Positions 26,384-56,360 of a stretch of 64,000 bases of DNA are shown one piece after another. The number at the start of each line of letters is the position of its first letter. Within the stretch, counting starts at the first letter, position 1. The notes beneath the pieces were generated by a model. That model was not told where the DNA came from. It searched no databases and worked only from the letters and a program-made list of their open reading frames with translations. A program made the position numbers and the translations under genes. The stretch comes from Corynebacterium sp. SCR221107. Lineage in GTDB: Bacteria; Actinomycetota; Actinomycetes; Mycobacteriales; Mycobacteriaceae. The DNA lies in the NCBI RefSeq assembly GCF_027886475.1, contig NZ_CP115670.1, positions 1,240,001 to 1,304,000 of the forward strand. The letters are read 5' to 3'.

Positions 26384-26740
26384 ATGAATTCCGCCTATCC
26401 ATTTGGCCAGCCCACCGACAACGCCAACGCCTATGCTGCAGGCTCATCCGGGGACTACTCTGGCGCATCGAGTGACGACACTTTTGCCAACGGCTTAACC
26501 GGTGGCACGACGGCGTCCGTGGGATCGGGCACGGGACTGCTGCAGCGCAGGCTGCGCCGATCGAGCACACAAAACCTCGTCGGCGGGGTGCTTTCCGGCA
26601 TCGGTGAGACCTACAACATCAACACCACCTTGTTGCGGGTGGGGTTCATCGCCTCCATGCTGCTGCCTGGCCCGCAACTCCTGGCGTACGCGGCCGCATG
26701 GCTGATCATGCCCAGTGACACCACAACACGCCTGGTGTGA
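26384..26740 (+). CDS. PspC-domain small membrane protein
   Basis: 118 residues from ATG 26384, preceded by AAGGAG at 26371. The longer open frame back to 26159 has no ribosome binding site and is not protein-like. The first ~55 residues are Ser/Gly/Ala/Thr-rich and disordered. The PspC domain begins at RLRRSSTQNLVGGVLSGIGETYNINTTLLRVGFI and contains one or two membrane segments (VGFIASMLLPGPQLLAYAAAWLIMP). PspC proteins take part in envelope-stress responses in other bacteria, but small stand-alone actinobacterial versions have no defined role. No Psp partners are adjacent. The next gene's riboswitch promoter lies 70 bp downstream. Confidence 0.85.
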   Translation: MNSAYPFGQPTDNANAYAAGSSGDYSGASSDDTFANGLTGGTTASVGSGTGLLQRRLRRSSTQNLVGGVLSGIGETYNINTTLLRVGFIASMLLPGPQLLAYAAAWLIMPSDTTTRLV

Positions 26741-26806: not shown

Positions 26807-26835
26807 TTGCGCAGATAAATGAAAATGCTTAAGCT
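26807..26835 (+). promoter_or_regulatory. Putative promoter of the Mn-riboswitch/CDF transcript
   Basis: TTGCGC (26807-26812), 17-bp spacer, TAAGCT (26830-26835). Transcription would start near 26842, just ahead of the riboswitch aptamer. Confidence 0.5.
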
Positions 26836-26842
26836 AATGTCT

Positions 26843-27040
26843 CTTGAAGGGGAGTAGTTTACGCAGGCGATGTCCTTGCGTGGCTGGTCGACATACTGGC
26901 GGGTCCGTGCCTGCCCGGCCATCCAGCTTCGACGGGCGCGAGCACGTGTCGAAAGACACGCTCATTGCTTGGCGCGCTGTGTAGGAGTGAACGAGACCTT
27001 CGGATCGACCCAGTGGTGTCGGCCGAGGTCTCGATTTTTT
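26843..27040 (+). ncRNA. yybP-ykoY (Mn2+) riboswitch with intrinsic terminator
   Basis: The conserved 5' strand TTGAAGGGGAGTAG begins near 26844, followed by the internal GTCGACATACT, the GTCCGTGCCTGCC segment and the 3' conserved strand GAACGAGACCTTCGG (26989-27003), all hallmarks of this family. P1 pairs TGAAGG with CCTTCG. The same 3' strand CGAGACCT (26992-26999) can instead pair with AGGTCTCG (27026-27033) to form a hairpin followed by TTTTTT (27035-27040). Mn2+ binding should therefore favour anti-termination and switch on the downstream exporter gene. The start is 57 bp after the terminator. Confidence 0.88.
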
Positions 27041-27097
27041 ATGCCCTCGACGCCGGTTCACCCTGCCTTGAGCTTCGTTTAAGGAAGGTGCCAATCC

Positions 27098-28018
27098 GTG
27101 GCCACACTTCAATCCGAGCAGCGCATTCTCGAGCTGTTTATGAAACTGTCCATCGCCACCGCCGTCGCCACCATCGCCTTGAAGGTGTGGGCCGCCGTTG
27201 CCACCGGCTCCGTGGGCTTTTTGTCCGATGCCATGGAGTCCGGCGTCAACCTTGCCGCCGCGGTGGTGGGCTTTATCGCGCTGAAGGTCTCTAGCAAACC
27301 AGCTGACGCCAACCATCACTTCGGCCACGGCAAGGCTGAGTACGTCTCCGCGCTCGTCGAGGGCGCGATGATCTTCGTGGCCTCCGGGGCGATTATTTAC
27401 ACCGCCATCGAGCGCCTCATGGCGCCGCAGCCCCTTGAGCAGCCCGGCATCGGCCTGCTGTTATCGACCGCCGCCTCCGTCCTTAACCTCATTGTCGGCG
27501 TGGCCTTGCTGCGCGCCGGCAAGAAGTACCGTTCGGCCACCCTTGAGGCCGACGGGCATCATTTGCTTACCGACGTCTGGACGTCCGTTGGCGTCCTTGT
27601 TGGCATTGCCGCGGTGGCTGTGACGGGCTGGCTGTGGCTCGACCCGGTTATCGCCTTGGCCGTCGGCGTCAACATCTTATATACCGGCTTTAAACTGTTG
27701 CGCCAGTCGCTGTCCGGGCTGCTGTCGGAGTCGCTGCCGAAGGAGGAAAACGATCACATTCGCGCCTACATCACACAATTCGGCAAAGACAACGACGTAG
27801 TGTTTACCTCCATGCGCTCGATCGCCTCGGGTCGCCAGCGTTTCGTCTACCTCATCATGGAGGTTGCCGGGGACATGTCGGTGGGGCGCAGCCATGAGAT
27901 CTCCGATGCGATCGAGGAGGGGATCGACGAGCTTCTTGGCGGCGCCGAGACCTTTGTGCACATCGAGCCCAAGGGGCACTCGCGTCCTGAACGGGTGACC
28001 GTCCGCCACTCGCGTTAA
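27098..28018 (+). CDS. Cation diffusion facilitator (CDF) exporter, probably manganese
   Basis: 306 residues. Six transmembrane helices (residues ~12-210) and a cytoplasmic C-terminal domain of about 95 residues ending in VHIEPKGHS. Metal-site residues are seen in GFLSDAMES in helix 2 and EADGHHLLTDVWTS in helix 5, and HHFGHGKAEY follows helix 2. GTG start at 27098 with AAGGAAGG upstream. CDF proteins exchange protons for Zn, Fe or Mn. The leader is a Mn-sensing yybP-ykoY riboswitch and the next gene is a Mn importer, so manganese is the likely cargo (MntE-like role), inferred from context rather than from selectivity residues. In other bacteria this riboswitch also controls MntP or P-type exporters. 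Confidence 0.88.
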   Translation: MATLQSEQRILELFMKLSIATAVATIALKVWAAVATGSVGFLSDAMESGVNLAAAVVGFIALKVSSKPADANHHFGHGKAEYVSALVEGAMIFVASGAIIYTAIERLMAPQPLEQPGIGLLLSTAASVLNLIVGVALLRAGKKYRSATLEADGHHLLTDVWTSVGVLVGIAAVAVTGWLWLDPVIALAVGVNILYTGFKLLRQSLSGLLSESLPKEENDHIRAYITQFGKDNDVVFTSMRSIASGRQRFVYLIMEVAGDMSVGRSHEISDAIEEGIDELLGGAETFVHIEPKGHSRPERVTVRHSR

Positions 28019-28076
28019 CGCCTGCTCGCGGCACGGTCGCCGCGTGATTGAGAGGCATGTGATTGATTGGCACGGC

Positions 28077-28104
28077 CTAATTAACTCAACTTGTTGTTAG
28101 GCTT
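28077..28104 (+). promoter_or_regulatory. Candidate operator/promoter region of mntH
   Basis: Inverted repeat GCCTAA (28077-28082) / TTAGGC (28099-28104) enclosing CAACTTGTTG (28089-28098). It lies 39 bp before the mntH start, as expected for a metal-dependent repressor site. The match to any known MntR or DtxR box is not close. Confidence 0.35.
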
Positions 28105-28142
28105 ACCGTTCTGGCAGCCCGCGCCAGCAAGGTGGTAAGTTG

Positions 28143-29399
28143 ATGAGAGTGAATAGGCCACGTACAAACAAGCCCCAGCCTCGGCGCAATGCCGGGGTGG
28201 GGCTTGTCGGCTTATTGGGGCCGGCTTTCGTAGCCTCGGTCGCCTATGTTGACCCCGGCAACGTGGCAGCCAACATTACCGCGGGCGCGCGCTATGGCTA
28301 CCTATTGGTTTGGGTGCTGGTCTTGTCCAACCTCATGGCCGTGTTCATCCAGTACCAATCCGCGAAGCTGGGAATCGTTACGGGCAAATCCCTACCCGCA
28401 ATGATGGGGGATAGACTCCCCCGCGGCACCCGCATCGTGATGTGGGCTCAGGCCGAGTTCGTTGCCATCGCTACTGACCTCGCTGAGGTCGTTGGTGGCG
28501 CAATCGCGCTCAACCTGCTCTTCGACCTGCCACTGCTGTGGGGTGCCGTTATCACCGGTGCCGTCTCCTTTGCCTTGCTCTTGTTCCAAGGTCGAAAGCA
28601 GCGCGTATTAGAACGCGTGGTCATCGGCCTGCTCGTCATCATCGCCTTTGGCTTTCTGGCCGGAATACTCATTGACCCGCCAGCCCCGGCGGCGGTGGCC
28701 ACTGGGCTTATCCCTCGCTTCGCAGGCGCGGATTCGGTGTTGCTTTCAGCCTCGATGCTGGGTGCCACCGTGATGCCGCACGCGATCTACCTGCACTCCG
28801 CCTTGGTAAACGATCGATTCGGGTCAGGATCGACGGCTGACGGAAGCCGGATCGCGCGTCTGCTGCAAGCAACGAAGGTCGATGTGGTGTGGGCCTTGGC
28901 GATTGCCGGCGCGGTCAATATTGGCCTGCTCGTACTCGCCGCCAATGCCTTCTACGGCATGACGGGCACAGACTCCATCGAGGGGGCGCATGCCGCGATC
29001 GTCGCAACGCTTGGCGATGCGGTAGGTGTCATCTTTGCGGTTGGCCTTCTGGCATCCGGACTCGCGTCGACGAGCGTTGGCGCCTACGCTGGCGCGGAAA
29101 TCATCAGGGGCATGCTCAAAGTCAGCGTTCCCATGTGGGTGCTGCGCCTTATCTCACTGATTCCGGCACTGGTGGTCCTCGCCTTCAAGGTTTCCCCCAC
29201 GACCGCGCTGGTGTGGAGTCAGGCCATTTTGTCGCTGGGTATCCCCTTTGCCATCGTGCCACTGTTTCTCGCAACCGGTTCGAGGCGTGTCATGGGAAAG
29301 TACGCCGACAAGTTGGGAACCAAACTGATCGCCTGGATCCTTGCCGGATTGATCATCGCGCTCAATGTTGCACTCGTGATTTACTCCGTTGACGGCTAG
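28143..29399 (+). CDS. mntH: NRAMP-family Mn2+/divalent metal importer
   Basis: 418 residues with about 11 transmembrane helices. The NRAMP signatures are intact: VDPGNVAANI in helix 1 (Asp and Asn ligands) and ATVMPHAIYLHSAL in helix 6 (Met and His ligands). The proton-coupled transporter takes up Mn2+ (and Fe2+). ATG 28143 has AGGTGG upstream; the TTG three bases earlier is unlikely. It follows the riboswitch-controlled CDF exporter after 124 bp and probably has its own promoter, so that import and export can be regulated in opposite directions. The sequence is collinear with family members and has no defects. Confidence 0.92.
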   Translation: MRVNRPRTNKPQPRRNAGVGLVGLLGPAFVASVAYVDPGNVAANITAGARYGYLLVWVLVLSNLMAVFIQYQSAKLGIVTGKSLPAMMGDRLPRGTRIVMWAQAEFVAIATDLAEVVGGAIALNLLFDLPLLWGAVITGAVSFALLLFQGRKQRVLERVVIGLLVIIAFGFLAGILIDPPAPAAVATGLIPRFAGADSVLLSASMLGATVMPHAIYLHSALVNDRFGSGSTADGSRIARLLQATKVDVVWALAIAGAVNIGLLVLAANAFYGMTGTDSIEGAHAAIVATLGDAVGVIFAVGLLASGLASTSVGAYAGAEIIRGMLKVSVPMWVLRLISLIPALVVLAFKVSPTTALVWSQAILSLGIPFAIVPLFLATGSRRVMGKYADKLGTKLIAWILAGLIIALNVALVIYSVDG

Positions 29400-29577: not shown

Positions 29578-29650
29578 TGTCCCCGACAGGATTCGAACCT
29601 GCGACCTTTGGTACCGGAAACCAATGCTCTATCCACTGAGCTACGGAGAC
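29578..29650 (-). tRNA. tRNA-Arg (anticodon CCG)
   Basis: A 73-nt cloverleaf on the minus strand. Acceptor stem GTCTCCG/CGGGGAC (one G-T pair), D-arm with AGCTCAGTGGATAGAGC, anticodon stem TTGGT/ACCAA with loop TTCCGGT (anticodon CCG, codon CGG), T-arm GGTTCGAATCC. CCA is not encoded. Confidence 0.95.
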
Positions 29651-55825: not shown

Positions 55826-56360
55826 AATCGCGGAATTGTGTTTTTTTATGTCTGGATGTTTCTGTGAGCTGGCATAAGTGAAAACAATCACTGTGTGCGC
55901 GTTGCGAAATATTGGGGATCCTGCAAACATTTCACGGGGTCAAACGGTGGGGAAAGGTGGGGAACTAGGGTGTTGATTTTTGAAATGTAACGGGAATAAG
56001 GGGGTAAAATTGGGGGTATTTTGTCATGCCTCATTGGTTTGTGACAGAGCTTACAAATCTCCGTTTTCCCCGCTAGATGGGCATACTTCGAAGTGGAAAG
56101 TTGCGAGTGGGATTAGCCCTGTTTAGCCGGACAGATTTTCCCAAAATGGACTGATAATCTAAGCAACGGGTTGGCTGAGATGGGACTCGTGTGAGCGAGT
56201 CTTGTTTCGTGCTCTAGGTCCCCTGCGATCGCCGTGCTGATGTGCGACGGAATCCACGGTCTTCGCAGAGAGTTTTTAGACGTCCATCGCACCGCTAAGT
56301 CTCCGAAAGAGTCTTACGGCCCGAACACGGGAGAGAACGCTGAGCGTTACAACACTGTCC
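55816..56360. other. Promoter/leader region of the atp operon
   Basis: No gene. Two GlxR-like sites lie here: AGTGAAAACAATCACT at 55877-55892 (8 of 10 fixed positions of TGTGAN6TCACA) and TGTGACAGAGCTTACA at 56040-56055 (9 of 10). The region is AT-rich, with G-runs around 55930-56020, and suits a regulated promoter with a leader of unknown length. Confidence 0.45.

Follow-up and report, generated by a model that had tools for sequence, protein, structure and literature searches.

A predicted terminator-type yybP-ykoY riboswitch before a CDF-family exporter gene in Corynebacterium sp. SCR221107

What does the leader in front of a CDF-family cation exporter gene of Corynebacterium sp. SCR221107 sense, and how would it control the gene behind it? 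The question comes from a stretch of 64,000 nucleotides (nt) of this strain (contig NZ_CP115670.1, positions 1,240,001 to 1,304,000; hereafter the window, whose numbering is used below), taken from a genome of 3.04 Mb in a single contig. In it, a first-pass annotation had described a complete manganese homeostasis block made of a yybP-ykoY riboswitch with its terminator, a CDF gene and the Mn2+ importer gene mntH (Table 1). The family membership of the leader, its two competing structures and the exporter families found behind related leaders have been computed here. Our overall explanation, in which we have high confidence, is that a terminator-based yybP-ykoY Mn2+ riboswitch switches on a Mn2+-exporting CDF protein.

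The leader holds the yybP-ykoY signature, namely the L1 strand GGGGAGUAG, an L3 strand of the ACAUAC type and the GAGACC 3' strand, and a check of the letters found every one of these strands and both terminator arms where they had been annotated. The unconstrained fold of the aptamer and covariation arrange P1.1/P1.2, P2, P3 and P4 round a multi-helix junction. Independent evidence came from R1, a covariance model made from 15 distinct leaders located 5' of CDF relatives in other genomes, the window being excluded; when these 15 leaders were passed to RNAalifold without a structure, it returned P1.1, P1.2 and P3 together with the base of P4. R1 matched the leader at 26843-27004 with 73.9 bits (E 5.7e-15, E-values being rough owing to a short calibration), its sole match in the 64 kb at E<=10. 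Run unfiltered on two E. coli K-12 regions and on the terC locus of the window genome, the same model ranked three leaders highest: that of E. coli mntP, a Mn2+ riboswitch, at 44.9 bits (E 1.3e-8), that of terC at 30.6 bits (E 2.4e-5) and that of E. coli alx at 17.7 bits (E 0.021). The top unrelated match reached just 10.6 bits. Because a single model matches both the window and the established E. coli mntP riboswitch, we assign the leader by homology to the yybP-ykoY (Mn2+) riboswitch family as a genuine member, in agreement with the first-pass annotation. Covariation points the same way: once 50 leaders had been aligned to R1, paired cells made up 97.4% and both-sided changes occurred in 18 of 23 pairs, figures to be read knowing that an alignment fitted to R1 favours pairing and that the 50 sources were hand-picked among the fetched R1 matches, some near-identical ones being omitted. 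As a control, none of 500 shuffles attained any of five measures, and sliding the partners by one column lowered pairing to 45-47%. No match to the leader was found on plasmids.

Regarding the expression platform, the claim that the terminator is built from the aptamer's own 3' strand was confirmed. Folded alone (26843-27004) and unconstrained, the aptamer forms P1.1, P1.2, P2, P3 and P4 at -67.4 kcal/mol; when the leader is extended to 27060, the terminator fold becomes the best one, at -92.6 kcal/mol versus -82.9 kcal/mol with P1.1 and P1.2 enforced. The strand 26997-27001 is common to P1.1 and the terminator, and the two structures are therefore mutually exclusive. A consensus terminator scan omitted this terminator. 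The P1.1 3' strand thus serves as the terminator 5' arm, followed by a U-tract, as in the transcriptional ON platform of Lactococcus lactis, in which Mn2+ stabilises P1.1 and blocks the terminator, giving an ON switch by antitermination (PMC11087558). By homology to that arrangement, Mn2+ is predicted to switch the CDF gene on. At high Mn2+, L1 and L3 would dock round the ion and P1.1 (GAAGG/CCUUC) would close early, sequestering the strand CGAGACCUUCGG so that no terminator could form; RNA polymerase would then proceed into the CDF gene, the product of which would export Mn2+. At low Mn2+, the same strand would pair with CCGAGGUCUCG into the six-U terminator and the exporter would stay off. 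The adjoining mntH is a separate gene. In this scheme we infer the Mn2+ ligand, the Mn2+-responsive termination and the export of Mn2+ by the CDF protein.

How widespread such leaders are, and which genes they precede, was surveyed with R1 (E<=0.01) in an even draw of 151 genus genomes, with 24 candidates per genome scored under stricter filters; the result is a lower bound tilted to CDF, since R1 was made from CDF leaders. The survey gave 36 matches in 33 of the 151 genomes, and an exporter-type gene stood behind all 36, namely 25 CDF genes, 8 MntP genes (8/8 by Pfam) and 3 genes of the Na/Ca-exchanger type (Na_Ca_ex, Pfam). With the riboswitch class already predicted in the genus, and with a CDF gene behind it in at least 25 of the 151 genomes, this strain is not special in that respect. 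Across a sample of 296 genomes of the phylum, R1 matched in 25, the window genome included, and 25 matches lay outside the window genome; 20 of these were read for their partner (L188, L189, L191, L194 and L195 being excluded), giving 15 GDT1-type and 5 Na/Ca-exchanger-type genes and no CDF; a Pfam check upheld 7 of the 20. Within the genus and phylum samples, the CDF pairing was confined to Corynebacterium. A DNA pattern of fixed spacing matched only the window genome among the 151; the P4 length that it allowed was too narrow, and this result is not evidence of absence elsewhere.

The window genome carries a second leader of this type, before terC at 1877296-1877441 of the contig (1.88 Mb; minus strand of the fetched locus, L223 2648-2793). 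It has a terminator of its own, with a U-run ending right beside the start codon, and its 3' arm holds GGAGGU, resembling a Shine-Dalgarno (SD) sequence. That the genome would hold a single such leader proved wrong: a prefilter that let 150 of 2093 candidates be scored had lost the terC leader, which a direct R1 search found. Among the 30 terC loci most like that of the window genome, out of 150 genomes with terC, GAGGGGAGTA, TCGTCANCACG and GAGACCTCNGG are all present in 30/30 and GACATAC in none, and R1 searched directly finds 29 of the 30 leaders at E<=0.01. The L3 strand of these terC leaders is closer to that of E. coli alx (GATCGTCATTACG) than to the CDF/MntP type. Judging from these sequences, the riboswitch family of this genus is probably found most often with terC, and frequently with CDF; the view of CDF as the commonest was dropped, as R1 derives from CDF leaders and the survey had reported no terC leader.

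No MntP was found in the window genome. Elsewhere in the genus, 5 of 13 MntP genes over the cut-off had no R1 match, and their upstream stretches show no such leader by eye. A mutual exclusion of MntP and CDF was considered and abandoned, the numbers being too few: 2 of the 13 MntP genomes carry a CDF gene where about 5 would be expected (from 61/151), and for riboswitch-borne CDF genes 1 was observed where about 2 would be expected.

To class the expression platforms, each of the 36 genus leaders was folded between CGAGACC and the start codon, with starts chosen by rule (by hand for G096). In 29 leaders the P1.1 3' strand pairs with the region of ribosome binding; another 6 have a hairpin with a T-run behind it, and one does neither (G067, terminator-like with no T-run). 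The six terminator-type leaders are those of the window genome and G096, before CDF, and of G117, G044, G046 and G090, before MntP. All of 30 distinct leaders pair >=8 nt of the P1.1 3' strand with sequence downstream, compared with 35% of dinucleotide shuffles. Six of the 30 belong to the terminator class, versus 1.0% of shuffles, and 23 to the ribosome-site class, a label that is less secure because 41% of shuffles also yield it (23% with >=8 nt paired). On these folds, the window leader is assigned to the rarer, transcriptional platform of the genus. It also has the longest span from GGGGAG to GAGACC of the 36 leaders (150 nt; 84-148 nt in the other 35), for which P4 is responsible. Four MntP leaders of the genus (L134, L197, L199 and L200) have near-identical short terminators (CGGCG..CGCCG, GGTCTATTTTTATG) directly after the aptamer and are presumed to form a clean set of transcriptional Mn riboswitches.

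CDF relatives are present in 61 of the 151 genus genomes, and near-identical CDF genes of close relatives differ in their leader, which is absent from L004, L007 and L008 and present in L006, L009 and L010. Since such genes differ in this respect, the sequences indicate that the leader is gained or lost repeatedly, and the region upstream of near-identical CDF genes seems to have been exchanged. On a CDF tree of 37 rows, neither platform nor riboswitch presence clustered better than in shuffles (SD class: 10 changes versus 11.2), and the two CDF leaders of terminator type sit apart. The protein of the window is itself a CDF member, with both domains over their gathering cut-offs (Cation_efflux PF01545, 157.4 bits versus 26.6; ZT_dimer PF16916, 43.8 versus 26.7). 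CDF has been listed among the Mn-exporter families (PMC9334652, PMC8546581, PMC13274385), and the CDF protein YiiP of Salmonella has been treated as a Mn exporter, with a promoter region that has no homology to that of mntP (PMC8754126).

Several observations weigh against our explanation. The Rfam model RF00080, proposed in the first-pass annotation as the check on the riboswitch, gave the leader no match at gathering: it scored 15.1 bits versus a cut-off of 45, in a search of only 381 bases and with the 3' half misaligned across the long P4, and in a search of 46.8 kb the locus was absent even at E<=10. A consensus promoter scan found no promoter on the plus strand. Of the 61 CDF-bearing genomes, 36 showed no adjacent R1 match in the survey, and 12 leaderless CDF loci rescanned unfiltered yielded no leader (best 12.3 bits, E 0.44); because so many CDF loci are without a match, the CDF gene does not require the switch. 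The platform classes were derived by minimum-free-energy folding of short stretches, and the SD class is weakly specific. As to the protein, its top NCBIfam model is MntE (NF052621), at 260.9 bits under the equivalog cut-off of 500, and its site A by alignment to FieF (E47, N51, H155 and D159) matches neither that of FieF, which we take to be Asp, Asp, His and Asp, nor one that we can tie to Mn2+. The FieF equivalog likewise remained out of reach (165.7 bits versus 420). On these scores the CDF protein is not assignable to MntE and should not be named mntE; to judge from the company of its switch, Mn2+ export is nevertheless the likeliest reading of its function.

Taken literally, the RF00080 score is the outcome that had been named as contrary to the riboswitch, yet the model is a poor test for this branch. 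It is uninformative because E. coli mntP too misses the cut-off (41.6 bits, below 45; alx was unlisted at E<=0.01) and because RF00080 (Rfam release 15), as printed, leaves the P1.1 strands unpaired; it also extends beyond the aptamer. None of 15 genus leader loci, the window included, reached 45 bits, two being listed at E<=10 (17.9 and 15.3 bits), and the same held for a further 14, of which 11 came from the phylum sample and 3 were terC loci; two of the phylum loci had 35.3 and 21.1 bits, and terC gave nothing at E<=1. In C. glutamicum, three places had scored 43.7-49.9 bits with an older Rfam model (PMC3890552, Table 2). The present Rfam cut-off overlooks this branch of the family, even E. 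coli mntP. The low RF00080 score is also what speaks for a chance resemblance, in which conserved-looking words and a terminator would stand together with no aptamer; we reject it as practically negligible in view of the R1 match (E 5.7e-15 with an independent model), the covariation and the conserved place before exporters.

What remains to be weighed is the cargo of the exporter, the level at which the switch acts and the ion that it binds. The switch could be real and Mn2+-responsive while the CDF protein mainly moves another metal (Zn2+, Fe2+, Co2+ or Cd2+), induction by Mn2+ then being a general guard. CDF proteins are often broad in substrate, the nearest solved relatives (FieF/YiiP) are Fe/Zn/Cd pumps, and site A departs at its first two places from the presumed FieF aspartates, with the E..N and H..D pairs retained in 37 of 37 CDF rows (of 63 CDF places; 35 different). 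We regard this as unlikely all the same, as the same aptamer stands before MntP in the genus (8/36) and before GDT1 outside it, both being Mn-exporter families, and as the MntE model outscores that of FieF (260.9 versus 165.7 bits). It is less probable still that the switch is mainly translational, or acts via Rho, as most of its corynebacterial relatives seem to do, with little contribution from the six-T hairpin. Such a mode would suit the 29 of 36 genus leaders that fold as SD-sequestering and the E. coli mntP riboswitch, described as translational with Rho involvement (PMC11647493), and in the window itself GAAGGU (27084-27089, overlapping the SD sequence) is the exact complement of ACCUUC (26996-27001) in the P1.1 3' strand and can pair with it. 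This complement, of 6 nt, may be a relic of an SD-sequestering platform or due to chance. Against such a mode stands the hairpin of -26.9 kcal/mol, which takes one arm from P1.1 and has six T behind it; its class arises in 1.0% of shuffles, the SD class in 41%. As for the ion, three genus leaders precede genes of the Na/Ca-exchanger type, and a streptococcal yybP-ykoY aptamer is reported to bind Ca2+ more tightly than Mn2+ (PMC9495176), so that another divalent ion, e.g. Ca2+, might be the physiological ligand; given the MntP and GDT1 partners, and given that in vitro Mn2+ activates transcription above Ca2+ (PMC9495176), we hold this to be very unlikely. A Mn2+ riboswitch that acts on termination and switches on a Mn2+-exporting CDF protein thus stands as our preferred explanation.

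A broader picture can be offered tentatively, as one possibility that we do not favour over its opposite. The Mn2+ riboswitch of the genus may be an exchangeable module, placed on no fewer than three exporter families that are unrelated to one another (CDF, MntP and the Na/Ca-exchanger type), a related L3 variant standing before terC; its output may have flipped between masking of the ribosome site and termination more than once, and the CDF proteins with the Glu-Asn/His-Asp site may represent a new Mn2+-selective subtype that replaces MntP in many species. Across the sister leaders a single aptamer seems to act on termination in some and on translation in others, which makes them a useful natural set for the study of how riboswitch platforms evolve. 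Moreover, a CDF protein that is common in corynebacteria, and unstudied in the literature covered, is tied to Mn through a well-understood RNA sensor and becomes testable.

Efflux and influx genes do lie together, mntH following the CDF gene after 124 nt as had been annotated. Its product is well assigned (Pfam Nramp PF01566, 352.4 bits; NCBIfam MntH NF001923, 452.1 bits, over the cut-off of 430), and relatives occur in 51 of the 151 genus genomes at E<=1e-40. Both genes are present in 21 of them, and among these the adjacency is seen in the window genome only, although draft contigs could hide other cases. The first-pass annotation had placed mntH under control opposite to that of the exporter. 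The only sign of this that was found is a weak palindrome (28085-28098) that by eye, with no statistics, resembles TTCAANNNNTTGAA-like sites 5' of some other mntH genes, the MntR-box form used for the comparison being our assumption; of two DtxR-family matches in the genome, one passes the cut-off and the other falls short of it, and both lie outside the window. Opposite control of mntH is a reasonable guess. With the second leader before terC about 0.6 Mb away and no DtxR-family match in the window, the block is not complete. The earlier interpretation holds in part: the riboswitch family, the terminator competing with P1.1 and the CDF-mntH adjacency stand, completeness does not, and opposite control stays a guess.

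Table 1. Features of the riboswitch-CDF-mntH locus, in window coordinates.
Feature	Position	Strand	Basis
yybP-ykoY (Mn2+) aptamer (predicted)	26846-27001	+	R1 match; unconstrained fold of aptamer alone
P1.1	26846-26850/26997-27001	+	fold of aptamer alone
L1 strand GGGGAGTAG (RNA: GGGGAGUAG)	26849-26857	+	letters; identical in all 15 leaders of the R1 alignment
P1.2	26857-26862/26987-26992	+	fold of aptamer alone
P2 hairpin	26863-26879	+	fold of aptamer alone
P3, containing internal loop L3	26881-26925	+	fold; covariation (helices 3-5)
GACATAC (RNA GACAUAC), internal loop L3	26890-26896	+	letters
P4, exceeding most relatives in length	26927-26985	+	fold
3' strand CGAGACCTTCGG	26992-27003	+	letters
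Intrinsic terminator	stem 26992-27033; arms 26992-26999 and 27026-27033; six T 27035-27040	+	letters; hairpin -26.9 kcal/mol
Shine-Dalgarno sequence AAGGAAGG	27081-27088	+	letters
CDF-family cation exporter gene, 306 amino acids	GTG 27098 to stop 28018	+	frame; Pfam
Weak MntR-box-like palindrome CTCAA-CTTG-TTGTT (CTCAACTTGTTGTT), upstream of mntH	28085-28098	+	by eye; unproven
mntH, Nramp Mn2+ importer	ATG 28143 to 29399; alternative start TTG 28140	+	Pfam; NCBIfam

On either side of this locus lie a gene for a PspC-domain protein (69 bits; 26384-26740), which ends about 105 bp 5' of the riboswitch, and a tRNA gene on the minus strand (29578-29650) immediately past mntH. Further along the window, the curated cis-regulatory atpB RNA (RF02916) matches at 56223-56353 on the plus strand with 121.3 bits.

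How does the locus compare with known systems? Among proteins, FieF/YiiP belong to the same CDF family and are the nearest solved relatives by sequence, although two of the four site A residues differ (Glu and Asn here, Asp and Asp in FieF, on the site assumed above). The MntE-type CDF Mn2+ exporters of S. pneumoniae provide the best NCBIfam model for the window protein, yet with a score far under its cut-off. Compared with the L. lactis riboswitch, as we take its form to be, the window leader has a much longer P4, a CDF exporter behind it and a score under the Rfam 15 cut-off. In L. lactis likewise, the 3' strand of the switch helix P1.1 builds the terminator (PMC11087558). Within the genus, three yybP-ykoY elements were predicted in C. 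glutamicum, one of them before terC (cg2157) and matching an observed transcript (PMC3890552, PMC4046766), and others in C. pseudotuberculosis (PMC3917459, PMC3890534); these are of the same riboswitch class, and the partner in the portions available is terC or unnamed, with no CDF. The available part of PMC9495176 describes the yybP-ykoY riboswitch with no CDF under it, and in the partial texts covered on the riboswitch with CDF and on Corynebacterium exporters no report of a CDF gene behind the riboswitch was found, an earlier mention in Dambach 2015 or Price 2015 being possible; the CDF-riboswitch pairing is provisionally an undescribed one. The E. coli mntP riboswitch shares with the window leader the strands GGGGAGUAG, GUC[GA]ACAUACU and CGAGACC, but it precedes MntP instead of CDF and is of the translational form with Rho (PMC11647493). 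Set beside these systems, the window leader is a member of a known riboswitch family with an ordinary mechanism; its gene partner is of a less usual kind, and a frequent one in part of the genus.

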